Part shown: positions 38,396 to 54,639 of the stretch, piece by piece | Layout: the number at the start of each line of letters is the position of its first letter | Numbering within the stretch: the stretch's first letter is position 1 | Assembly: GCF_000166135.1 (NCBI RefSeq) | Contig: NC_014666.1 | Coordinates: 3,596,001 to 3,660,000, forward strand | Source: Pseudofrankia inefficax | Lineage (GTDB): Bacteria > Actinomycetota > Actinomycetes > Frankiales > Frankiaceae | DNA: 64,000 bases | Direction of reading: 5' to 3' | The notes under the pieces: generated by a model | The model's input: only the letters and a program-made list of their open reading frames with translations | What the model was told of the DNA's origin: nothing | Database searches by the model: none | Translations under genes and position numbers: made by a program

Positions 38396-38845
38396 ATGGG
38401 CTCGGGTGGGGAGTCGGGCGGCTCGCCCCCCGCGCGGATCGACTTTTTCGTGTCCTATACCGGTGCTGACGAGGCGTGGGCGACCTGGGTCGCCGCGGCG
38501 CTGGAGAAGGCCGGCAGGACGGTCTCCCTGCAGGTGTGGGACTCTCCCGCCGGGACCAACGTCGTCGTCTGGATCAACGAGCAGATGACGGCCGCGAAGT
38601 GGACGATTGCCATCTGCTCGCCGGCCTATTTCGACGCACACTGGTCCACCTACGAGTGGGCCGGGGCGCTGGCCGGAATGAAGCTGATCCCGCTGCGGGT
38701 CGCCGACTGCCCGCTGCCTCCGATACTGGCCGCAGCGAAACGGCGAACTATAGTGCGAATGGTGACCCAGGTCACATGGCGCTACGCCCGTGCCGGTGCG
38801 CTGATCTTCGGGGGTTCGCGTCGCTGTTCGTTGCTTGCGAGGTGA
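38396..38845 (+). CDS. TIR-domain protein with truncated C terminus
   Basis: A 149-residue protein that is almost entirely TIR domain. FFVSYTGADEAWATWVAAAL opens it at residue 17, QVWDSPAGTN follows, and YFDAHWSTYEWAGAL provides the catalytic glutamate (E87) typical of NAD-cleaving TIRs. The match ends at CPLPPILA near residue 112; the last 37 residues (KRRTIVRMVTQVT...) are unlike any TIR C terminus and unlike the intact TIR at 53.1 kb, so the 3' end has probably been lost by rearrangement next to the cassette leader. No adaptor domain is present. It may be inactive or a free effector remnant. Confidence 0.68.
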   Translation: MGSGGESGGSPPARIDFFVSYTGADEAWATWVAAALEKAGRTVSLQVWDSPAGTNVVVWINEQMTAAKWTIAICSPAYFDAHWSTYEWAGALAGMKLIPLRVADCPLPPILAAAKRRTIVRMVTQVTWRYARAGALIFGGSRRCSLLAR

Positions 38846-39052
38846 GCACCCGCGTCCGGGCTTGGTCGGCTCGGGTTGGCGTGGACCTGGTGGCCCTCGA
38901 CGCGCATTGTCCCCGGGTCGGTTCGGCCTTTCATTTGGGCGGCGGTGCATTCCACGGTAGCGGTCGAATTCGCGCCGTATTGGCTCCACTGTATTCCGTG
39001 AATCGACGGTTTTCGGCGGCCGGCTCGACTAGAATCAGAGGTAACTAAATAA
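38846..39052. other. Non-coding stretch between truncated TIR and cassette 1 leader
   Basis: A less GC-rich stretch without a credible gene. It probably contains the promoter for cassette 1, since AT-rich sequence (AGAGGTAACTAAATAAGG) lies directly before the conserved hairpin. Confidence 0.3.
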
Positions 39053-39055
39053 GGC

Positions 39056-39127
39056 GGCCCGGAGCGGTGGTGGAACACCAACTCCGGGCCTTGACCCAAA
39101 CCTTGATGCAACCAAGGAGTGGACCCA
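39056..39127 (+). ncRNA. Structured leader of cassette 1 (candidate RNA switch)
   Basis: GGCCCGGAG (39056-39064) pairs perfectly with CTCCGGGCC (39082-39090), with an inner TGGTG/CACCA stem in the loop. Downstream CCTTG occurs at 39089-39093 and again at 39101-39105; either can pair with CAAGG (39113-39117), which overlaps the Shine-Dalgarno AAGGAG of the next gene. The same layout precedes cassette 2 at 46105, where the main stem differs by compensatory changes. This is a candidate RNA element with no name I know. Confidence 0.6.
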
Positions 39128-39526
39128 ATGGTGATTGTGCCAGATGGGGTGCGGGCGCTGTCCTTCACCCGTCATGCGGTTGGTTCGATGCGGGAGTTGC
39201 CGGTTCAACGGGCGGTGTTCACGGCGGCGTGTGAGGCGCATGGCTGGTCGGCGGGTGGCTCGGTCTGCCAGATCGGCCGGGGGCTGCGGGCCTGGTGGTC
39301 GGTGGTGCGGATGGTCCGGTCGGGTGCGTATGACGTGGTCGTGGTCGACACCTGGGAGCGGATGTCCGCGACCGAGGCCGGTCAGCTCTGGGTCTTGTCG
39401 CTGCTCCAGCGCTCGGGGGTGCGGCTGCTGGTGGCCCGGGACGGCATCGACACCGGTGAGCCGGTCGGCTACGGCCTGGTGGGTGCGCTGCTGGACATCT
39501 GGGGCCGTGAGGCGGTGGCCCGGTGA
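39128..39526 (+). CDS. Catalytically dead serine-recombinase-like protein (cassette 1, gene 1)
   Basis: A 132-residue protein with the fold pattern of a resolvase catalytic domain only: RALSFTRHAV at the first strand, QRAVFTAACEAHGW helix, AYDVVVVDTWERMSATEAGQ, GVRLLVARDGIDTGEPVGYG and the start of the E-helix. The catalytic serine position of resolvases (Y-x-R-x-S) is F13-T-R-H-A17 here, so serine is replaced by alanine, and the second catalytic arginine of the DRLxR region is also missing (ERMSA). No DNA-binding domain follows. ATG at 39128 has AAGGAG nine bases upstream. GTGA overlap with gene 2. A paralogue lies at 46176. Confidence 0.72.
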   Translation: MVIVPDGVRALSFTRHAVGSMRELPVQRAVFTAACEAHGWSAGGSVCQIGRGLRAWWSVVRMVRSGAYDVVVVDTWERMSATEAGQLWVLSLLQRSGVRLLVARDGIDTGEPVGYGLVGALLDIWGREAVAR

Positions 39527-40041
39527 GCGGGTCGGGTGAGCGTCCGGGCGTGCGGCTGGTGGAAGTGTCGGCCGGGGATGACGGCTGGCATTTCCTGACG
39601 GTGCGCTCGGGTGCGACGACACCGGAACTCGTCGCGGGTGTCGCGGCGCTCCCGGCGTCGATCCTGGTCGACGCGCTGTCGATGGACCGGGCCGGCTCGG
39701 GCGTGGTGATGACGTTCCGGGACTTCCCACCCGGCGTGGTCATCGACTCGGCGCCCTGGCCCGGCCAGACTGCTCCGGAAGATCCGGCAGACGCGATAAC
39801 GGCCGCACCGGTCGAGGGCTCCGGTTGGGTTCCGGAGGTCGGTCAGGCGGTCGGTCCGGATCGGGGCCTGACGCCGTTCGAGCAGGCGGTGTGGGAACTT
39901 GTCTCGGCGGCCCGCGACGGCGCGGCGGCGGCCTGGATCGCCGTGCTGATCCGCCGCGTTCCCCCACAAGGCGTCGTGGCCCTGGCCGACCTTGCCCTCG
40001 GCCGACACTGCGGCTGCCGAAACGGCGGTCGGCACTCGTAG
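39523..40041 (+). CDS. Cassette partner protein, unknown function (cassette 1, gene 2)
   Basis: A 172-residue protein of no recognised family. It overlaps gene 1 by 4 bp and is clearly related to the product of the frame at 46580: both share RSGATTPELVAGVAALP-like and FRDFPPGVV-like segments (GATxxE, VAxLP, FRxFPxGV), then GWVPEV and PDRGLTPFEQAV. The C terminus ends in VVALADLALGRHCGCRN, with a CxC pair that is also kept in the other copy beyond its stop. No membrane segment. Always next to the recombinase-like gene in this window, so the two products probably act together. Confidence 0.65.
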   Translation: MSGSGERPGVRLVEVSAGDDGWHFLTVRSGATTPELVAGVAALPASILVDALSMDRAGSGVVMTFRDFPPGVVIDSAPWPGQTAPEDPADAITAAPVEGSGWVPEVGQAVGPDRGLTPFEQAVWELVSAARDGAAAAWIAVLIRRVPPQGVVALADLALGRHCGCRNGGRHS

Positions 40042-40480
40042 GCGGGGGCGTACCGTCGAGGACGGCCGGCAGCTTCCATCCCCCCGTTGGAGGCCGCCGG
40101 CCCTTCGCATCGCCGGGGCCTCGGGGCTTTGCCCCTGCATTCCTCGGGCTGAGCGGGGCTCCTCCGGCGGGCAGGCAAGCCTTGCTTTGCTCCAGGGTTC
40201 TCGGCCGCGCAAGACCCGCCGTCGCCTCTCGCGCCGATCGACGCGGGTGCGGGTCTTGCGCGGTCGGGGTTCCTGGAGCAACCCTCCGGGTGCCTGCCTG
40301 CCTGCCGGAGGAGACACGCGGACTCCCGCCGTCCCTCCCCCTCCTCTGGTGGAAGGGCCGGGGTCCGGGGCAGAGCCCCGCTCGTCTTTGTTCCGCTCTG
40401 CGAGGTCATCGGCGCGCCCGCTTTCCGCTGGCTCCGGGCCTGGCTGACCGGCTGGGTCCGTCCGCTGTCATGCTGCGGGT
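40042..40480. other. Non-coding region with a large imperfect inverted repeat
   Basis: No gene recognised. Open frames on both strands are byproducts of the GC-rich inverted repeat at 40159-40313. It probably ends transcription of cassette 1 and holds the promoter of the DUF4240 gene. Confidence 0.4.
40159..40313. repeat. Long imperfect inverted repeat
   Basis: Arms 40159-40219 and 40249-40313 can pair: the inner 15 bp (CCGCGCAAGACCCGC with GCGGGTCTTGCGCGG) are perfect, the outer CTCCTCCGG/CCGGAGGAG ends match, and CAGGCA/TGCCTG and TTGCTCCAGG/CCTGGAGCAA match between. The loop is about 29 nt. It may act as a strong terminator, or be a relic of an insertion. Confidence 0.7.
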
Positions 40481-41080
40481 ATGCAGGTGGACGAGTTCTG
40501 GTCGATCATCGAGGATTCGGCCGGCGCGGTCGATCTCGGTAAGGAAGACCGAGCCGACGGGCTGGTGGCTGACGCGGTCGAGGCGCGGCTTGCCGGGCTG
40601 ACGTTGGACGACATCCTTCAGTTCGACACGCACTTCCGGCTCGCGCACATCCGCGCCCATACGTGGAGCCTCTGGGCGGCTGCCGACCTCATGCTGCGGT
40701 TCTGCTCGGACGACAGCTTCATCGACTTCCGCGCGGGTGTTATCGCACTCGGTCGCGAGACCTATGAGCAGGTCGTCACGGCGCCGGACACGCTCGCCGA
40801 GCATCCACTGGTGATCCGGATCGCCAGCGGGGAGGCGGACAGGTACGCCTTGCAGATGGAGCAGCTCAACTATGCGGCGGGGAAGGCTTACGACCGGCTC
40901 GCGGGCAAGGAACACGCCTACTGGGACAGAACAGCCGACGAGCCGCGCGGACCGTTCGCCGCCGCGTACGCGCCGGGTGAGAAATTCCAGTTCCAAGACC
41001 CAGCACAGCAGCAGGCTCGCCTTCCGAGACTCTGGAGGTTGTTCCGCGGCTCCGATGGCGCGCCGGCCGCCCTCAGATAG
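40481..41080 (+). CDS. DUF4240 domain protein
   Basis: A 199-residue protein. Residues 1-130 fit DUF4240: MQVDEFWSIIEDS at the start, LDDILQFDTHF, HTWSLWAAADLMLRFCSDDSFIDFRAGVIALGRETYEQVV and a closing DTLAEHP. This domain is common in actinomycete accessory DNA, sometimes beside immunity or toxin genes, but its role is not known. The tail after residue 150 is variable and charged. No strong ribosome binding site is visible before ATG 40481. The 163-bp inverted repeat begins about 50 bp downstream. Confidence 0.78.
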   Translation: MQVDEFWSIIEDSAGAVDLGKEDRADGLVADAVEARLAGLTLDDILQFDTHFRLAHIRAHTWSLWAAADLMLRFCSDDSFIDFRAGVIALGRETYEQVVTAPDTLAEHPLVIRIASGEADRYALQMEQLNYAAGKAYDRLAGKEHAYWDRTADEPRGPFAAAYAPGEKFQFQDPAQQQARLPRLWRLFRGSDGAPAALR

Positions 41081-41131
41081 CGAGACGACCTCTCGCCGGC
41101 CAAGGCGCGCAGCGATCATCGTTTTCAGGTG

Positions 41132-41294
41132 CGACGGGGCGACGCTCCGACAGGCGCGGGCGGGGTGGCAGGCCGACACGCCCGGGGTGCCGAGCGAAGC
41201 GAGGCGGGGCCCCGGGGCGTGTCGGCCTGCCGGGGCCCCGGCCGTGCGTGGCGCGTGCGGCGGCACGGCGCGGCGGCCGAAGGCCGCCCTTGAA
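41132..41294. repeat. 163-bp inverted repeat, left copy
   Basis: Reverse-complement partner of 45012-45174, with seven differences over 163 bp by hand alignment. Within it, GGCAGGCCGACACGCCC and its near-perfect complement around 41208-41231 form a stem of about 21 bp. It brackets the NB-ARC gene and two small genes. It holds no convincing gene although random frames run through it. Confidence 0.85.
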
Positions 41295-41374
41295 CCCGTA
41301 CAGATTTTTGGCGACGATCTTTGGTGTCGGCGTTTGGTGTCGGCTTCGGGTGGGCTCGGGATGCCGGGGGGCGT

Positions 41375-43654
41375 GTGAGCGTGGGGTTGTCGGTGGTGGA
41401 GGTCGCGGAGTTCGCTGAGGTGTTCGCGGATGTGGTGGCGGCGCGGGTGGTGTTGGAGTCGGCGGGGTTGGTGCGGTCGCGGCATCCGGGGTGGACGACG
41501 GCGGTGGAGTTCTGGTCGGAGGCCGGCCGGCTTTTGGCTGCCGGCGTGGTGGTGGATGGTCGGGCGCGGTTGATGGGGGTGGCGGCGGGTCTTTTCCCGG
41601 GGAATGAGGTGTTCGCCGCGGGTGTGGCCGGCGGACTTGGTGATGGTGGGCGGGGTTTGTCGGTGTGGGGCGTGCCGGAGCGGCTGGTGCGGTTCGTGGG
41701 TCGTGAGGATTTGTTGGAGGAGGTGCATGCGGCTGCTGGGGCGGCGGCTCGGGTGTCGCTGGTTGCGTTGGATGGGCTGGGGGGTGTGGGGAAGACGGCG
41801 TTGGCGCTGGAGTATGCGCATCGTCATCGGGCGGAGTTTGACGTGGTGTGGTGGGTGGTGGCGGAGCGGGCAGAGTTGGTGGAGGCGCGGCTGGCGGAGT
41901 TGGCGGGGCCGTTGGGGTTGCCGGCCGAATCGGATGCGGATGCGGTGTGGGCGGCGTTGCGGGGGGTGGCTTCTTGGCTGGTCGTGTTCGACAACGTCGA
42001 GGAGGTAGCGGCGGTGGCGCGGTTTCGGCCGTCAGGGGGTGGTCGAGTGCTGGTGACGTCGCGGAATCGTGCGGTGCGGGGATTGGGGTCGGCGTGGATC
42101 GAGGTGCCGACGTTGGAACGGTCGGCGTCGTTGGAGCTGCTGGAATCAGGGCCGGCTGGGGCGGATCACGTGGGTGCGGACCGGGTGGCGGCCTTGTTGG
42201 GGGATTTGCCGTTGGCGGTGGATCAGGCGGCGGGTTACTTGGCGAGGACGGGGATATCGGCGCAGCGGTATGCGCGCCTGGTGGAGGCCCAGCCGGGGGT
42301 GATGTTGGGTCGGGGTCAGGTGGTGGATCGGCCGGACACGGTGGCGTCGGTGTGGCAGGTGTCGGTCACGTGGTTGCGGGCGGAGAATCCGGCGGCGGTG
42401 GGGCTGTTGGAGCTGTGTGCGTGGTGTGGGCCGGAGCCGATCCCAGTGGATCTGTTCACGGGGGACCACGTCGACTGGCCGGAGACTGCCGGCGATCGGG
42501 GTGGTCTGGCGGCGTTGCGGGTGGCGGCGGGTGATTCGGTGGCGTGGGAGGAGGCTGTGGGGGCGCTGGTGGGGTATAGCTTGGCGCGCCGTGATGGGGA
42601 TGCGCTGGTGGTGCATCGCCTGGTGGCGGCGGTGACCCGGGAGGACGCGCCGGACGGGCGGTCTGACGAAGCGTTGCGGGTGCTGGCAGGTTTGCTGTGT
42701 GAGGTGCTGCCTGGTGACGTTTGGGGGAATCCCGGGGGTTGGCCGGCGTGGCGGGTACTGCTTCCGCACGCGCTGGCCGTGGCCGAGAGTGCACGTGGTG
42801 GAGAGGGCCAGTTGTTCGCGGATGGTTGCTGGCTGGCGGACCGGACAGCGACCTACTGGCAAGGTCATGGCCAACTCCCGGCCGCGATCGGCCTGTTCGA
42901 GCAGACCCTCACCGACCGGGAGCGGGTGTTGGGCGCGGAGCACCCGGACACGCTGATCTCGCGGAACAACCTGGCCTACGCCTACCGGGCGGTGGGGCGG
43001 GTGGAGCAGGCGATCGGTCTGTTCGAGCAGACCCTCACCGACCGGGAGCGGGTGTTGGGCGCGGAGCACCCGGACACGCTGATCTCGCGGAACGACCTGG
43101 CTGGCGCCTACGAGACAGCGGGGCGGGTGGAGCAGGCGATCGGCCTGTACGAGCAGACCCTCACCGACCGGGAGCGGGTGTTGGGCGCGGAGCACCCGGA
43201 CACGCTGATCTCGCGGAACAACCTGGCCGGCGCCTACGAGACAGCGGGGCGGGTGGAGCAGGCGATCGGCCTGTACGAGCAGACCCTCACCGACCGGGAG
43301 CGGGTGTTGGGCGCGGAGCACCCGGACACGCTGATCTCGCGGAACAACCTGGCCGGCGCCTACGAGACAGCGGGGCGGGTGGAGCAGGCGATCGGCCTGT
43401 ACGAGCAGACCCTCACCGACCGGGAGCGGGTGTTGGGCGCGGAGCACCCGGACACGCTGATCTCGCGGAACAACCTGGCCGGCGCCTACGAGACAGCGGG
43501 GCGGGTGGAGCAGGCGATCGGCCTGTACGAGCAGACCATGGCTGTTGCGCAACGGGTGTTGGACCAAGAGCATCCATGGTTGGCGACGTTTCGCGCGAAT
43601 CTAAAGCGGGCTCGGGAGGCTACCGCCACATGCGACAGTTCGGCGCCTAGCTGA
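41375..43654 (+). CDS. EAD-NB-ARC-TPR protein (bacterial NLR-like STAND ATPase)
   Basis: A 759-residue STAND protein. Residues 10-82 form an effector-associated domain (FAEVFADVVAARVVL..., FWSEAGRLLAAGVVVDG, FPGNEVF). The NB-ARC ATPase starts at WGVPERLVRFVGRE near 98, with P-loop LGGVGKT at 135-141, Walker B WLVVFDNVEE at 201-210, VLVTSRNRA and GDLPLAVDQAAGYL. Residues from about 505 are TPRs of 42 residues (LxEQTLTDRERVLGAEHPDTL...), five full units nearly identical at DNA level. Such proteins sense phage or stress and activate an effector recruited through the EAD. It has more TTG/GTG/GCG codons than its neighbours, a sign of transfer. GTG 41375 chosen near GGGGG; an earlier codon at 41321 is possible. 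Confidence 0.88.
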   Translation: MSVGLSVVEVAEFAEVFADVVAARVVLESAGLVRSRHPGWTTAVEFWSEAGRLLAAGVVVDGRARLMGVAAGLFPGNEVFAAGVAGGLGDGGRGLSVWGVPERLVRFVGREDLLEEVHAAAGAAARVSLVALDGLGGVGKTALALEYAHRHRAEFDVVWWVVAERAELVEARLAELAGPLGLPAESDADAVWAALRGVASWLVVFDNVEEVAAVARFRPSGGGRVLVTSRNRAVRGLGSAWIEVPTLERSASLELLESGPAGADHVGADRVAALLGDLPLAVDQAAGYLARTGISAQRYARLVEAQPGVMLGRGQVVDRPDTVASVWQVSVTWLRAENPAAVGLLELCAWCGPEPIPVDLFTGDHVDWPETAGDRGGLAALRVAAGDSVAWEEAVGALVGYSLARRDGDALVVHRLVAAVTREDAPDGRSDEALRVLAGLLCEVLPGDVWGNPGGWPAWRVLLPHALAVAESARGGEGQLFADGCWLADRTATYWQGHGQLPAAIGLFEQTLTDRERVLGAEHPDTLISRNNLAYAYRAVGRVEQAIGLFEQTLTDRERVLGAEHPDTLISRNDLAGAYETAGRVEQAIGLYEQTLTDRERVLGAEHPDTLISRNNLAGAYETAGRVEQAIGLYEQTLTDRERVLGAEHPDTLISRNNLAGAYETAGRVEQAIGLYEQTLTDRERVLGAEHPDTLISRNNLAGAYETAGRVEQAIGLYEQTMAVAQRVLDQEHPWLATFRANLKRAREATATCDSSAPS
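42901..43530 (+). repeat. Five tandem 126-bp units encoding identical TPRs
   Basis: The unit starting GCAGACCCTCACCGACCGGG recurs at 42901, 43027, 43153, 43279 and 43405; a diverged sixth begins at 43531. Units 3-5 appear identical by eye. Homogeneous repeats point to recent duplication or gene conversion and could change in number between strains. Confidence 0.92.
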
Positions 43655-43925
43655 GTCGATCAGGTGGTATTGAGCGCGCGCTGACCTTGTCGTGCGCGAG
43701 AAGGGGCGAGTTCTCGCGCACTAGAGAACGGACATCACGGACACGCCTGTGACCGGCCTCGGTAGATGGCAGGGTCGCCGGCGTGCCCTGGCCTGGGCGT
43801 CCTGTCCTCGTCTAGGCCCTCGATGACAGCGGAACGAAGAGTCCCGGCAGTCGACGGCGTACGGGTGGCTTAGCGGGACTGGCTATGCGGCCGCTTCGGG
43901 GACCGATCCTGTTGGAGCGTCCGTG
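43655..43925. other. Gap between NLR gene and the next convergent gene
   Basis: Apart from the terminator-like hairpin at 43692-43721, no gene or motif is recognised in these 271 bases. Confidence 0.4.
43692..43721. terminator. Hairpin downstream of the NB-ARC gene
   Basis: GTGCGCGAGAA and TTCTCGCGCAC form a perfect 11-bp stem with an 8-nt loop, 38 bp after the stop codon. Confidence 0.65.
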
Positions 43926-44342
43926 TCACCACTGGACCCCCATCCCCTGTACAAGCGCCGTTAGTAGCGCGATCGCCGCCCCGGCACCGACCCCAACCAG
44001 CAGGTAGCTGCGTAGCCAGGATGGCGATTGTTCGCCGCGCATTTCCACCGAGTAGCCAGGACTACGTGGCAGGTAGAGGACCGCGATCCTCACGCCGATC
44101 GGCAACGCCCGCCCGACGGTGATCTCATGTGTCCCGCCGTCGGCATCGGCGTAGACGCAGACAGTCTCAGTCCGCCAGAGGGCGGGCGCGCGCCGCACGA
44201 GAACCTCCCTGCGACTCTGCGCGACGGCGACCGCCCGTAGGCCGTGGCGCAGAAAACGCCCGTAGGAGCCGACGTCCGCAGCGCCGACCAGGCCGAAGCC
44301 GAGGACAGTCGCGCCGAACACGATCAGCGGTACCCAGCTCAC
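43926..44342 (-). CDS. DUF3592-like small membrane protein
   Basis: A 138-residue protein with one helix at residues 4-24 (VPLIVFGATVLGFGLVGAADV) and one at 112-132, flanking a beta-rich outer domain with YADADGGTHEITVGRALPIG and VLYLPRSPGYSVEM. This two-helix frame with a short dyad of strands is what DUF3592 proteins look like. GTG at 44342 has AAGGGG eight bases upstream. It lies inside the inverted-repeat bracket with the NB-ARC gene, on the opposite strand. Function unknown. Confidence 0.68.
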   Translation of the reverse strand: MSWVPLIVFGATVLGFGLVGAADVGSYGRFLRHGLRAVAVAQSRREVLVRRAPALWRTETVCVYADADGGTHEITVGRALPIGVRIAVLYLPRSPGYSVEMRGEQSPSWLRSYLLVGVGAGAAIALLTALVQGMGVQW

Positions 44343-44514
44343 CGCGCCACCCCTTACAGTCGGCGACGATCACCAGTCTTGATCTCGGGATGACATGTCA
44401 GTCGAGTACAAATCCGCCGAACCACCGTTGACGACACCCTCCCTCACCCGCACCCACGAAGATCGTCGCCGATGCGCGATCGACCGCGCGGTCTACGGCA
44501 ATGAGGACGTTGTT

Positions 44515-44955
44515 TTAGTCCGCTCGGACCGTCAAGGCGTCCTCGGACCGCACCAGCATCCACCGGTGATCGGTCGCCCGCCAAACGTTGCCGCGTCCAG
44601 GCGCGGTCGCCGCCCAACGGCAGGCCTCGGGCAGCCACCGATCCACGATCCGCGGCGCTAGGGCGGATCGAACACCGGCGGGCACGGCATTCCATCGCAT
44701 CAGGAGCCGGTCACGATCCAGGGCTGGGCCGCGAGTGCGCGACCTGCCGTCCCCGAGCCAGTACACGTCGAAGACCATGGAGAAGCGCTCGCCGGCTTCG
44801 GACCAGGGCGGCCCGGGCCCTCCAAGACTCAGGGATCCGATCTCTGCACCGGCGCTACGGAGAGCCTGCTCGACCCTGTCGCGGCCCACCGCGTGCGAGA
44901 AGCCGCCCGGCAAGCGATCCTTCGTGTACTCCGACCAGGGCAGCCCGGCTTCCAT
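44515..44955 (-). CDS. Hypothetical protein
   Basis: A 146-residue soluble protein of no recognised family, rich in tryptophan and arginine (LPWSEYTKDRLPGGFS, MVFDVYWLGDG, LMRWNAVPAGVR, WRATDHRWMLVRSEDALTV). The content is protein-like and not a byproduct of the opposite strand. The start ATG at 44955 lacks a clear ribosome binding site. It ends the gene set inside the inverted-repeat bracket; the right repeat begins 57 bp upstream of its start. Confidence 0.55.
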   Translation of the reverse strand: MEAGLPWSEYTKDRLPGGFSHAVGRDRVEQALRSAGAEIGSLSLGGPGPPWSEAGERFSMVFDVYWLGDGRSRTRGPALDRDRLLMRWNAVPAGVRSALAPRIVDRWLPEACRWAATAPGRGNVWRATDHRWMLVRSEDALTVRAD

Positions 44956-45011
44956 GTGCCCGAATACTAGCTATTGCCCGGTAGGCCGTCGCAGACTTTC
45001 TCTTCACTTTT

Positions 45012-45174
45012 TTCAAGGGCGGCCTTCGGCCGCCGCGCCGTGCCGCCGCACGCGCCACGCACGGCCGGGGCCCCGTCAGCCCGCCACGCCCCGGGGCCCC
45101 GCCTCGCTTCGCTCGGCACCCCGGACGTGTCGGGCTGCCACCCCGCCCGCGCGTGTCGGAGCGTCGGCCCGTCG
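45012..45174. repeat. 163-bp inverted repeat, right copy
   Basis: Reverse complement of 41132-41294 with seven differences. Some changes in the central hairpin are paired, e.g. CAGGCC/GGCCTG in the left copy becomes CAGCCC/GGGCTG here, so base pairing is kept. A GGCGGCCTTCGGCCGCC hairpin at its left end, after a run of T residues, looks terminator-like. Confidence 0.85.
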
Positions 45175-45203
45175 CTGAGGTCGTCGGTCTCCGTCAGCCC
45201 GCA

Positions 45204-45659
45204 TCAACCGCGACTGGCCCTCTCGGCGTCCGGTGCGTCCGACACGCCGCCCGCCCGCGAAGGCTCGATTGCCGCAGCCTTGCGTGCCTCGCGCCGTCGG
45301 ATCAGCTCCGGGCCGACCACGACGAAGGGAGATACGACGGCCATGCCTATGCCCCCCCAGACCCCGACCCCTATGAATGCCACGGGTATCAGGAGGGCGC
45401 TCACGGCGATCCGTAGGACCGTCAGCGTCCACTCACCAGCGCGCTCCCCGTACCGGTTCCGGAACAGCACCGCCATGACATAGCCAACCACGTTCACGAA
45501 AGCGAACACGACGATCAGCAGGGGAAGCACGACCCGATCGTCCCACACCGCAGCGCCCTGACGTCCCGCTGTCCCCATGAACGCGCGAACCAACGGAACG
45601 GCGAGGCCAGGCGCAGCCGACAGCCGGCGTCGCACGGCGGCTGTCTGTGGGTTGCCCAT
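45204..45659 (-). CDS. Small multi-pass membrane protein
   Basis: A 151-residue protein with helices at about 43-68 (VVLPLLIVVFAFVNVVGYVMAVLF) and 82-118 (a long hydrophobic stretch around LLIPVAFIGVGVWGG and VVSPFVVVG), with charged termini. No family recognised. ATG at 45659 opens a clean frame; the preceding bases show GGGGAATGG but no classic ribosome binding site. It lies just outside the right inverted repeat. Confidence 0.58.
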   Translation of the reverse strand: MGNPQTAAVRRRLSAAPGLAVPLVRAFMGTAGRQGAAVWDDRVVLPLLIVVFAFVNVVGYVMAVLFRNRYGERAGEWTLTVLRIAVSALLIPVAFIGVGVWGGIGMAVVSPFVVVGPELIRRREARKAAAIEPSRAGGVSDAPDAERASRG

Positions 45660-46104
45660 TCCCCGGCTGTGCCGATGATCTAACGGCCTGGCACCGGCAT
45701 CACGGGCGGGCTACGCCCGTCGGCTGCGCCGATCACCCTTCGGGCGACCCTTGACACCGCCACCATGCCGCTAAGTGCGGCACCCATGGGGGATGGGGGA
45801 GGAAAAATGGGAGGGCCGAAGACAGCCGCTCCAAGCCGTCTACCTGGGCAGCACCGGAAGGAGTCGGACGCTATTAGCGCGTGAAGAAAGAAACGCCAAG
45901 CGGTCACGAAACCCCACGTCGCACGGCACGGAGAGTACCGTCGGAGAATACAGGAAAGGTTCCACGTGAAACCAGGAAAGCACGCGGAGGCCATGTTCAC
46001 CCAGCCGGTAAATGTTCGCTTTTCGGCCGCTCGAATTTGTCGAATCGGCTGCATTCCACGGCCTGGCCAGGTTTTCTGAGAAGCGAAGTACAAATCAATA
46101 GGGC
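45660..46104. other. AT-richer non-coding stretch before cassette 2
   Basis: Composition drops in GC and codon bias vanishes, so open frames on both strands here (e.g. 45775-45969 plus, 45680-46093 minus) are not believed. The promoter of cassette 2 should lie at the right end. Confidence 0.4.
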
Positions 46105-46175
46105 GGCCCGGGAAGGTGCGCTAACACCAATCCCGGGCCTTGACCCAAACCTTGAGCGAACAAGGAGTGGACCCA
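46105..46175 (+). ncRNA. Structured leader of cassette 2 (candidate RNA switch)
   Basis: GGCCCGGGA (46105-46113) pairs perfectly with TCCCGGGCC (46131-46139), with an inner GGTG/CACC stem. Compared with the leader at 39056 the last two pairs are swapped (A-U and G-C become G-C and A-U), two compensatory changes. CCTTG at 46138-46142 and 46150-46154 can each pair with CAAGG at 46161-46165, which overlaps the ribosome binding site. The segment TTGACCCAAACCTTGA is identical in both copies. Confidence 0.6.
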
Positions 46176-46583
46176 ATGGCGAGTATGTCAGATGGGGTGC
46201 GGGCCGTGTGCTTCGCCCGTCGCGGAGTCGGAGCCGCTTCGCTGGCGGACCAGCGGGCGGCGTTCGAGACCGAGTGCGCCCAGCGCGGCTGGATCGCGGA
46301 CACCGGGATCTGCCAGCTCGGACGCGGCGGAGGCGACGGCCGCACGTGGGCAGCGGTCCGCCGACTGGTCCGGACCCGCCGGGCGGACGTCGTCGTGGTC
46401 GACAAGCTGGAGACGATCGGCAGCACGGAGCGGGAGATCGCCCAGGAGTTGGTGTTGCTGCGGCACGCCGGGGTCCGGCTGCTGATCGCCGAGTTCGGGT
46501 CGGACACCGCCGACGCCGCCTCGTTCGGCCCCCTGGTCGCCGAGTTCGGCGCGAGCGTCTCCCTGACGGCGGTAGCCGCATGA
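46176..46583 (+). CDS. Catalytically dead serine-recombinase-like protein (cassette 2, gene 1)
   Basis: A 135-residue paralogue of the protein at 39128. It aligns from DGVRAVCFARRGV through QRAAFETECAQRGW, RRADVVVVDKLETIGSTE and GVRLLIAEFGSDT. The serine position of resolvases is glycine here (F-A-R-R-G17), and both arginines of the DRLxR motif are absent (ETIGS). The two paralogues have therefore lost the same catalytic residues by different substitutions, which argues for a non-recombinase role. ATG at 46176 has AAGGAG eight bases upstream. Overlaps the partner frame by 4 bp (ATGA). Confidence 0.72.
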   Translation: MASMSDGVRAVCFARRGVGAASLADQRAAFETECAQRGWIADTGICQLGRGGGDGRTWAAVRRLVRTRRADVVVVDKLETIGSTEREIAQELVLLRHAGVRLLIAEFGSDTADAASFGPLVAEFGASVSLTAVAA

Positions 46584-47032
46584 GTAGTTGGCCGCTTGTC
46601 CGCGTCGTCGTCCTCCCGGACAACGGCTACGGCCTGGAGATCCTCATCGGAGCGACCCCCGCCGAGATCGCCACCGTCGCGGCAGGACTACCCCCGGCCG
46701 CGTTCGTCGGTCACACCTCGCTGGACGGCGGGACCACGCTACTGTTCCGCCGGTTCCCACGCGGCGTCCCCGACCCCTCCGCACCCGACACCACCTACCA
46801 GGCCGACCCGGACGCGCCGACCGTGGCCGACGGCTGGATACCCGACGTCACCGGCATGCCCGACCGAGGACTGACCCCCTACCAGGTCGCGGTAGGAACA
46901 CTCATGACCGCCACCAACGACCCAGCACTCGGCGCCCGCCTCTAAGGCCTCATCCAACGCGAAGACCCCAACGCCGTCATCGCACTCGCCAGCATCACCC
47001 GGCCACCAGGCTGCACCTGCCCACCCCCGTAG
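46580..47032 (+). pseudogene. Cassette partner gene with premature stop (cassette 2, gene 2)
   Basis: The frame from ATG 46580 ends at a TAA at 46943-46945 after 121 codons and aligns with the partner protein at 39523 (GATPAEI, AAGLPPAAF, FRRFPRGVP, GWIPDV, PDRGLTPYQVAV). Beyond the TAA the same frame continues for 28 codons with homology intact (GLIQREDPNAVIALAS, then GCTCPPP) and stops at TAG 47030, matching the AVLIRRVPPQGVVALAD...CGC end of copy 1. So a single nonsense change removes the conserved CxC tail. It may still make a shortened protein. Confidence 0.65.
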
Positions 47033-53121: not shown

Positions 53122-53148
53122 CACGCTGACGTCTGGCTCGTCAGCGTG
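53122..53148. terminator. Hairpin between convergent oxygenase and TIR genes
   Basis: CACGCTGACG and CGTCAGCGTG form a perfect 10-bp stem with a 7-nt loop; the stop codon of the TIR gene lies in the right arm. Confidence 0.6.
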
Positions 53149-54445
53149 ACGGCGGGGCGCCTCCCGTGCTCGGCGGGAAGCTGGGCTTCGTGTTGGGCTT
53201 CGTGCGGCCGCCGAGCGCGGCCGCGACCCCGGCCAGCAGGCGGGCAGCGGTCTCGTCCTCGGGCAGATCGAACAGGTCGACGCCGACGACGGTCGCCAGC
53301 AGCGTCGGCCGCTCGCAGTCCTCGACCCGCACCGGGATGACCTTGCGCTTGAACCCGTCCGGGTCCGCGCGCAGCGCCGCCTGCCATTCGGCCGTTCCCC
53401 ACACCGAGTCGATGTAGGCGTGGGAAAGCACGGTGATCGTCCGGTTGGCGCGCTGGATTCCCCGCGTCATCATGTTCATCCAGTTCGAGCCCGGGACGAA
53501 GTCCCACGCCTGGATGTAGACCGTGTAGTCGGCCTCCTCCAACTGCCAGGCGATCCACTCGGCCCAGCCCTTGTCGGCGGCGGTATAGGAGACGAAGAAG
53601 TCCCACGGGCGTTCCGTGGCCGGTCCCGCCCCCGCGACCACGCCGGTCGTGGGAGAAGAGCCGCCGGCCGACGGGACGCCGGGTCGCGCATCGTCCCGAG
53701 GCACGCTTGTTGTGCCTGTCGCGGCCGCCGGGGGAGCGGTCTGCCGCTCAGGTCCGGCGGCGGCCGACGTGGCAGGGTCGGTACCGCCCTGCGCCGGCGG
53801 TGGGGATTCCGCCCGCGGCGACGATGCCGTGGCGTCGGCGACCCCGGCGGCGAGCGCCGCCGCGCGGATGATCGGGTTGGCTGGCCGTTGGAGATACGCC
53901 TCCCGCAGCACCAGCGGCCAGCCACCGACGACCGCGCCGCCCTCGTAAAGGCGGTAGACCTCGGACCAGAAGAGTTCGGCGTTCCCCACCTGCCAACTCG
54001 GCTGTCGCGCGGGCCGCAGGCGCGCCGCCGCGATCAGTGTCTTCGCGGCCGTAGGGTCCGAGAACTCGTCCGCCAGCGCGCCGATCACCGTGCGTACATC
54101 GGGCGGACTGATCACCTCGGTAACGGGATTGGCGGCGTCCGGACCTTCAGTGACGCGGTAACCGATCACGACGTCCGATAGCAGCCGGTTTCCGGGATTT
54201 GCCCGAGCGGCCTCGTCCAGGAGCTGGGTAAGCCAACCTTCGGCGAGCGCGCCCTCGACGACGGCATACACCACATCCGGCAGTGGTGTGCGCTCGGCCC
54301 CGAAGTCGGTGATCCTGCGGTTGATGCGGTCGAGCAACTCCGCGAACCGTCCCCAGGATGGGAAGGCCGCCCCCAGTGCCTCTCTGACGGCGCGCCGTTG
54401 TCGCCCGTCCATTCCCTGGACCCGCGCGTCATCCAGCCCTGCCAC
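53141..54445 (-). CDS. TIR effector with two effector-associated domains (EAD-EAD-TIR)
   Basis: A 434-residue protein. Residues 12-90 fit EAD1 (RQRRAVREALGAAF, WGRFAELLDRI, VVYAVVEGALAEGWLTQLL, ARANPGNRLL). Residues 119-197 form a second domain (LADEFSDPTAAKTL, FWSEVYRLYEGGAVVGGW, RPANPII) that aligns with the N-terminal domain of the NB-ARC protein at 41375. A Ser/Pro/Thr-rich linker leads to the TIR domain (281-425): DFFVSYTAADKGWAEW, IQAWDFVPGSNW, and SVWGTAEWQAAL with the catalytic glutamate E353. TIRs of this kind cleave NAD to kill or arrest the infected cell. GTG at 54445 has GGGGAGG eight bases upstream. Confidence 0.87.
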   Translation of the reverse strand: MAGLDDARVQGMDGRQRRAVREALGAAFPSWGRFAELLDRINRRITDFGAERTPLPDVVYAVVEGALAEGWLTQLLDEAARANPGNRLLSDVVIGYRVTEGPDAANPVTEVISPPDVRTVIGALADEFSDPTAAKTLIAAARLRPARQPSWQVGNAELFWSEVYRLYEGGAVVGGWPLVLREAYLQRPANPIIRAAALAAGVADATASSPRAESPPPAQGGTDPATSAAAGPERQTAPPAAATGTTSVPRDDARPGVPSAGGSSPTTGVVAGAGPATERPWDFFVSYTAADKGWAEWIAWQLEEADYTVYIQAWDFVPGSNWMNMMTRGIQRANRTITVLSHAYIDSVWGTAEWQAALRADPDGFKRKVIPVRVEDCERPTLLATVVGVDLFDLPEDETAARLLAGVAAALGGRTKPNTKPSFPPSTGGAPPSR

Positions 54446-54639
54446 CAACAGCCGCCTCCCCGTCATCGCTGCCGCGGCTTCTCACGTTTCCAGAACGGGC
54501 ATTGCCGGGCGCTGGTTCCGGATCCGAAGCCGTGCGGTGACTGTAACGACATCGCGGTGGGGAGGCAGCCCGACGCCCTCGCGGCGACACGCGTCGACCG
54601 GCGCCCTGGGCTGCCGGCCAGGGCGCCGGCCGGCAGCGC

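Follow-up and report, generated by a model that had tools for sequence, protein, structure and literature searches.

A structured leader RNA, probably controlling translation, ahead of catalytically dead serine-recombinase genes in Pseudofrankia inefficax

Cis-regulatory leaders that hide the Shine-Dalgarno sequence are known from riboswitch expression platforms and from ribosomal-protein leaders. The element described here, present twice in a 64,000-nucleotide stretch of Pseudofrankia inefficax DNA (contig NC_014666.1, positions 3,596,001 to 3,660,000; this whole stretch is the window below), likewise is conserved, lies 5' of the gene and has the ribosome site inside a predicted hairpin, yet it serves many unrelated genes, reaches past the start codon and has no Rfam family. 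In the window, each copy precedes two overlapping genes, the first for a catalytically dead protein of the serine-recombinase fold and the second for a partner with a Frankia-40-like N-terminal part. On balance, we favour reading the leader as a cis-acting RNA that controls translation, here driving two operons of these genes. We are highly confident that it is a genuine structured element and moderately confident that it controls translation, a claim based on sequence; our confidence in the exact role of the protein pair is low.

The encoded proteins also have described relatives. Compared with the catalytic domain of serine integrases and resolvases (PF00239; TP901-1 integrase N-domain, PDB 3bvp), all 22 aligned members of the first-gene family lack the catalytic serine and the second arginine of the DRLxR motif, and the window proteins, of only 132–135 amino acids, carry no DNA-binding or recombinase domain. 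The partner differs from TIGR03917 (Frankia-40) by an extra C-terminal domain, while both kinds of gene share the same leader ahead of them. At leader-Frankia-40 loci, the gene order matches the modules of actinomycete integrative and conjugative elements (AICEs) in those parts of the AICE article (Ghinet 2011, PMC3218068) drawn on here, which mention neither the leader nor Frankia-40. As far as those parts describe AICEs, RepSA, Xis, integrase and a tRNA gene surround leader-Frankia-40 genes in the same way, joined by FtsK at locus L215 (L plus a number is our handle for a fetched locus), where the linked rep, xis, int and tra genes of an AICE are all present; no such core was seen at the window copies. 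Altogether, the layout of first gene and partner is one operon type in a broader, leader-controlled and often mobile-element-borne group of genes.

A covarying leader that ends at the start codon

The leader, about 80 nt on the coding strand, has two covarying hairpins and ends with the start codon; a further conserved patch follows at the beginning of the coding sequence. Hairpin 1 has the layout GG-stem-GGUG-loop-ACACC-stem-CC and is followed by a linker, UUGAUC; in hairpin 2, CCUUG or CCUG pairs with CAAGG or CAGG of the Shine-Dalgarno sequence, and ACCC and the start codon follow. In both window copies the leader thus appears to hide the ribosome-binding site, an occlusion predicted from the fold (Table 1). 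For each of them, none of 200 shuffled sequences folds as well, and the next-best match of the R2 covariance model (58 leaders, both window copies included) in the 64-kb window scores 15.7 bits.

The covariation that an earlier note on this DNA had read from the two copies is borne out by larger sets. Among 57 distinct Frankiaceae leaders, 88.5% of cells are paired, and the covariation score of 0.254 compares with 0.116 for shuffled alignments (0/500 reach the real value) and at most 0.126 for slid ones. Outside Frankiaceae, one listed match was fetched from each of 20 of the 65 leader-bearing genomes; in the resulting 23 leaders, none of which had served in model training, the paired share of cells is 91.3% and the score 0.276, with 0.075 for shuffled alignments and no more than 0.068 for slid ones. 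A first covariance model, built on 24 hand-picked leaders, found the leader in 33 of 35 Frankiaceae genomes with up to 13 copies per genome (E ≤ 0.1). The second model, at E ≤ 0.001, found it in 98 of 393 genomes of the class sample and 37 of 137 genera, namely in 33/35 Frankiaceae and 65/358 other genomes. Beyond the class it is scarce (7 of 396 genomes of the phylum sample, this genome counted, with three outside the class).

The tie to coding sequences is close. All 107 leaders at 99 Frankiaceae loci, the window included, have a start codon within 12 bases of the leader end and a frame of at least 40 codons under a lenient rule; outside the family, the start codon occupies the last three model positions in 22 of 23 leaders, two of the frames there being just 43 and 46 codons long. 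Conservation continues past the start. An A stands at base +6 in 99% of the 95 Frankiaceae leader genes compared, and serine at codon 3 is written AGT 21 times, AGC four times and TCN never, the genes being related rather than independent; the background among serine codons in those loci is 4.6% AGT and 27% AGC. Outside Frankiaceae, TA falls within +5 to +15 in 21/23 genes, as against 2–3/23 in three later intervals, and GTA occurs in 14 genes, in two reading frames (eight and six genes), starting at offset 9 or 10 in all but one of them. Since the serine codon choice is biased and GTA occurs in two frames, these patterns argue for a constraint past the start that acts on nucleotides rather than on a peptide. 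For the same reasons, a conserved N-terminal peptide behind the shared starts, M-x-[IMS]-[hydrophobic]-[PSA], was judged to be secondary.

No described family covers the leader in the material searched. Rfam gave no match at E ≤ 1 in window positions 36–50 kb and, in eight regions outside Frankiaceae, no family on the leader, one 6C RNA and two tRNAs lying apart from it. The literature searched did not reveal the leader, and a literature search under the TIGR03917 names found nothing. A shared -10 box at a fixed distance was sought as well; TAnnnT is scattered from about -55 to -12 and does not peak at any one distance. By eye, operator-like sequences, palindromic or repeated, can be made out upstream of the leader at L161, L162, L164, L104 and L108, several beside a divergent helix-turn-helix (HTH) gene, and suggest a transcriptional repressor in addition to an RNA gate.

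A dead recombinase domain and its partner

The earlier note correctly placed the unit of leader, recombinase-like gene and partner at two sites, with 4-bp overlaps between the genes (GTGA in copy 1, ATGA in copy 2). The two first-gene products, P0001 and P0003, share 44% identity (E 3e-27) and the two partners, P0002 and P0004, 37% (E 2e-16). A third cassette lies at position 308,160 of the 8,815,781-base contig, with 93.7% DNA identity to copy 1 across window positions 39048–40381, and its partner gene is frameshifted. P0004 in turn stops 28 codons before the end of its closest relative (149 amino acids, L028), which reads through. With one partner shortened and another frameshifted, one of the three cassette partners in the genome is intact. 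Relatives of P0003 at 83–93% identity occur in three other genomes; named first-gene relatives come from Frankia sp. AgB1.9, Pseudofrankia sp. BMG5.36, Pseudofrankia asymbiotica, Frankia sp. EI5c and Frankia sp. CIT1.

Table 1. Coordinates of the two leader-gene units in the window
Feature	Position	Strand	Basis
Leader RNA, copy 1	39051–39130	+	R2 covariance model 72.0 bits; fold z -3.75; covariation on alignments A9, A10
Hairpin 1, copy 1	39056–39090	+	Fold
Hairpin 2, copy 1	39096–39122	+	Fold
Shine-Dalgarno AAGGAG, copy 1	39114–39119	+	Sequence and predicted fold; AAGG in 3' strand of hairpin 2
Start codon, copy 1	39128–39130	+	As for leader RNA, copy 1
First gene P0001, catalytically dead serine-recombinase-fold protein, 132 aa	39128–39526	+	PF00239 E 0.00098, under curated cut-off
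Partner P0002, 172 aa, Frankia-40-like N-part plus C-terminal domain	39523–40041	+	Family alignment A4
Leader RNA, copy 2	46100–46178	+	R2 covariance model 79.8 bits; fold z -4.61
Hairpin 1, copy 2	46105–46139	+	Fold
Hairpin 2, copy 2	46145–46170	+	Fold
Shine-Dalgarno AAGGAG, copy 2, in part within hairpin 2	46162–46167	+	Sequence and predicted fold
Start codon, copy 2	46176–46178	+	As for leader RNA, copy 2
First gene P0003, catalytically dead serine-recombinase-fold protein, 135 aa	46176–46583	+	PF00239 E 0.00016, under curated cut-off
Partner P0004, 121 aa, cut by stop codon	46580–46945	+	In-frame homology continues to about 47032

All 22 aligned members of the first-gene family match PF00239 at E ≤ 0.1 (best 1.3e-9), the window proteins reaching 19.7 and 22.2 bits, slightly below the curated cut-off of 23.3. 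At the catalytic position, two residues past the first active-site arginine, serine is found in none of them; A, G, T or D stands there, including the A17 and G17 already read in the window copies, and in L033 and L034 a serine is displaced one residue downstream. The loss of the DRLxR arginines, as claimed before, is complete in copy 2 (LETIGS), while copy 1 (WERMSA) retains the first and lacks only the second; in the family, the first is kept by 12/22 members and the second by none. The model of the 132-residue protein fits serine-integrase catalytic domains, its best fold match being such a domain, and forms a single domain whose final helix ends at residue 131, with no separate DNA-binding domain. 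This long C-terminal helix presumably corresponds to the dimerisation helix of relatives. Together with a ratio of non-synonymous to synonymous substitution rates (dN/dS) of 0.15–0.35 in six comparisons, these data support the initial view that catalysis was lost and the fold kept.

Weak recombinase matches in a profile search of the Protein Data Bank (PDB) accord with this fold. RecA matches in the same search were rejected as short repeated matches without passing stretches, and HflX and ribose-binding proteins, ranked below recombinases in the VIA-align structure comparison, were taken as common arrangements. Weak first-gene profile matches in L106 and L108 lie inside large serine recombinases and were excluded as first genes. 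No match to P0001 was found by tblastn against plasmids and phages, and the viral contigs searched with first-gene alignment A3 gave 64 pattern matches with no relative among them.

The partner was searched for within Frankiaceae. At 14 of 28 first-gene loci, spread over seven genomes and including all three of this genome, it is found no more than about 1.5 kb from the first gene; the leader match at these 14 pairs is strong (at least 71.5 bits) in 12 and weak in two. The three-part unit of leader, first gene and partner is thus not supported as a system: half of the first-gene loci have no partner nearby, and in other genera many unrelated genes follow the leader. Partner genes that lack the first gene, named beforehand as evidence against such a system, also exist in the same genus, 12 of the 14 fetched loci of this kind having the leader. 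The two without a leader match are L096, where transposase-like sequence stands immediately upstream (by eye), and L109, which has the C-terminal part alone. In four genomes of another genus (L110–L113), both partner parts occur in separate frames upstream of a first-gene relative with its own leader.

Six of the 13 partner proteins compared give a weak match to TIGR03917 in their N-terminal part, the best at E 1.5e-4; the 40-bit cut-off is not reached, P0004 scoring 14 bits and P0002 giving no match. TIGR03917 itself, at E ≤ 1e-5, occurs in 33 of the 393 genomes in the class sample, Frankiaceae without exception, and the partner profile matches 32/35 Frankiaceae genomes at E ≤ 0.01, many of the matches being short. 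For the partner, dN/dS is 0.13–0.26 (five comparisons).

Mobile-element context and proposed mode of action

By profile, the 107 Frankiaceae leader genes comprise 48 Frankia-40, 18 partner-type, 16 dead-recombinase and 13 WWD-motif genes, with 12 matching none. Behind a WWD-motif gene, a dead recombinase comes next in some loci; at L115 (4251–4553) and L116 (4182–4490), the small WWD-motif protein is first behind the leader and its gene overlaps that of the dead recombinase. Ten leader genes scanned outside Frankiaceae include one each of DUF2637, HATPase and GntR, one weak HTH_36 and six without a family. We take DUF2637 to include spread proteins of conjugative plasmids. Around the 99 Frankiaceae leader loci, a tyrosine integrase is found at 40, RepSA at 32, Xis at 33, a large serine recombinase at 10 and any of these at 51, in a recurring order of RepSA, Xis, divergent HTH gene, leader, Frankia-40, small open reading frame and integrase. 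A tRNA gene is present at 16 of 17 such Frankia-40 loci scanned, 104 bases beyond the integrase at L161. At first-gene/partner loci, a tRNA gene was found in 1/10 scanned and a large serine recombinase in 3/14. In three loci outside Frankiaceae, tRNA genes lie about 200 bases upstream of the leader on the same strand (L219 5321–5395, L220 5122–5196, L229 5298–5374) and are possible attachment sites.

In the mechanism that we propose, actinomycete mobile elements and genomic islands would carry the leader ahead of small, probably regulatory genes. Its default fold would keep the ribosome off, until a trigger (an RNA-binding protein, small RNA or ligand) reads the conserved inner loop GGUG..ACACC, the linker UUGAUC and the patch past the start, and hairpin 2 opens. 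The 4-bp overlap should couple translation of first gene and partner, and a single gate would therefore govern both. Because it has neither a DNA-binding domain nor an active site, the dead domain is most likely to work through contact with other proteins, probably as an accessory or inhibitory subunit that would tune an integrase or another function of the element jointly with the partner; integrase tuning is plausible. The leader, which stands ahead of unrelated genes in Frankiaceae and other actinomycetes, would then represent a level of translational control not yet catalogued, which in Frankiaceae is linked to conjugative elements and offers a handle on Frankia-40 proteins. The dead domain would add another enzyme fold retained for a different role; integrases, themselves in use as genome tools, could have a natural regulator in it. 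Possible, if doubtful, is a wider scheme in which the leaders form an uncatalogued RNA family acting as a shared gate: one trans-acting host signal would open the leaders of many elements at once, so that unrelated elements would have their genes for integration, spread and regulation induced together. Capture behind leader and post-start patch would recruit new genes, the dead recombinase among them.

Several observations weigh against a leader RNA that controls a mobile, integrase-tuning operon. The proposed tuning rests on a large serine recombinase near three of the 14 first-gene/partner loci (L087–L089). Nearly half of the leader loci (48/99) show none of integrase, Rep and Xis in the fetched stretch, none of these is found among the genes clustered in window positions 36–50 kb, and an integrase was found in just 2 of 20 regions outside Frankiaceae, searched with Frankiaceae models; the mobile link is thus firm for the Frankia-40 loci alone. 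Two other leaders folded alone gave z -0.87 (35/200 shuffles as good) and z -2.00 (8/200), and in the outer stem of hairpin 2 (helix 3) just 73% of cells are paired. The alignments were fitted to the model and their scores favour it, a bias that the slid and shuffled controls limit rather than remove, and E-values of the leader model are rough. The post-start TA is weaker in Frankiaceae (33/95 versus 9–13/95). Finally, the structure model of the partner is poor (predicted local distance difference test 55.7), with no fold match at E ≤ 0.001 and no convincing solved relative.

Unlikely, in our view, is that the dead domain serves as a directionality factor or dominant-negative partner of an adjacent large serine recombinase, a role that its top fold match would suit. 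Such an enzyme lies upstream on the same strand at L088 (about 0.3 kb), L089 (1.2 kb) and L087 (2.9 kb), and others occur near leader-WWD or leader-Frankia-40 genes at L156–L159, L106, L108 and L190. However, none is present in the fetched stretch at 11 of the 14 first-gene/partner loci, both window copies among them, and at L156–L159 the large recombinase is accompanied by no first gene that we could see. The hairpins might also be conserved as a DNA element, either a recombination or attachment site or an operator, given that integrase and Xis genes are often nearby, that hairpin 1 is GC-rich and that some leaders show palindromic stretches immediately upstream. We regard this as improbable: the element has a single orientation and a start codon at a near-fixed distance, the Shine-Dalgarno sequence lies within hairpin 2, both hairpins covary, and G-U pairs are tolerated (13/57 at one hairpin 2 pair).

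A toxin-antitoxin-like pair, gated in translation and carried on mobile DNA, would match the small, overlapping and multicopy genes and the broken partner copies; it is very improbable, with partner and leader found without the first gene, the leader found also with unrelated genes, and no PADLOC match for the four proteins in a library made for defence genes. Least of all do we credit a decaying, functionless recombinase remnant, for which the missing catalytic residues and the broken partners of copies 2 and 3 could speak, in view of the low dN/dS of both genes and of 14 first-gene/partner pairs across seven genomes, most with a strong leader match.

Neighbourhood of the two copies

Among the neighbours of the two window copies are genes for a STAND protein, for a DUF4240 protein and for TIR-like proteins. 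Between the cassettes lies a STAND-type conflict protein with the architecture EAD1 - NB-ARC - TPR (41321–43654), and an EAD1 plus TIR_2 protein is encoded at 53141–54466. A TIR-like fragment with weak PADLOC matches (38396–38845) adjoins leader 1 on its upstream side, and proteins that cluster with it by BLAST occur near leader genes in L087, L090 and L104. Past copy 1, a large imperfect palindrome (40153–40319) recurs downstream of copy 3 and of the cassettes L051 and L031, and is possibly a Frankiaceae repeat element. Two stretches of about 190 bp in opposite orientations (41131–41319 and 44987–45176) are each about 89.5% identical to a stretch about 0.4 kb past the third cassette. The excess of G over C reaches a skew of 0.18–0.21 at 40001–44000, compared with at most 0.092 in the rest of the window.

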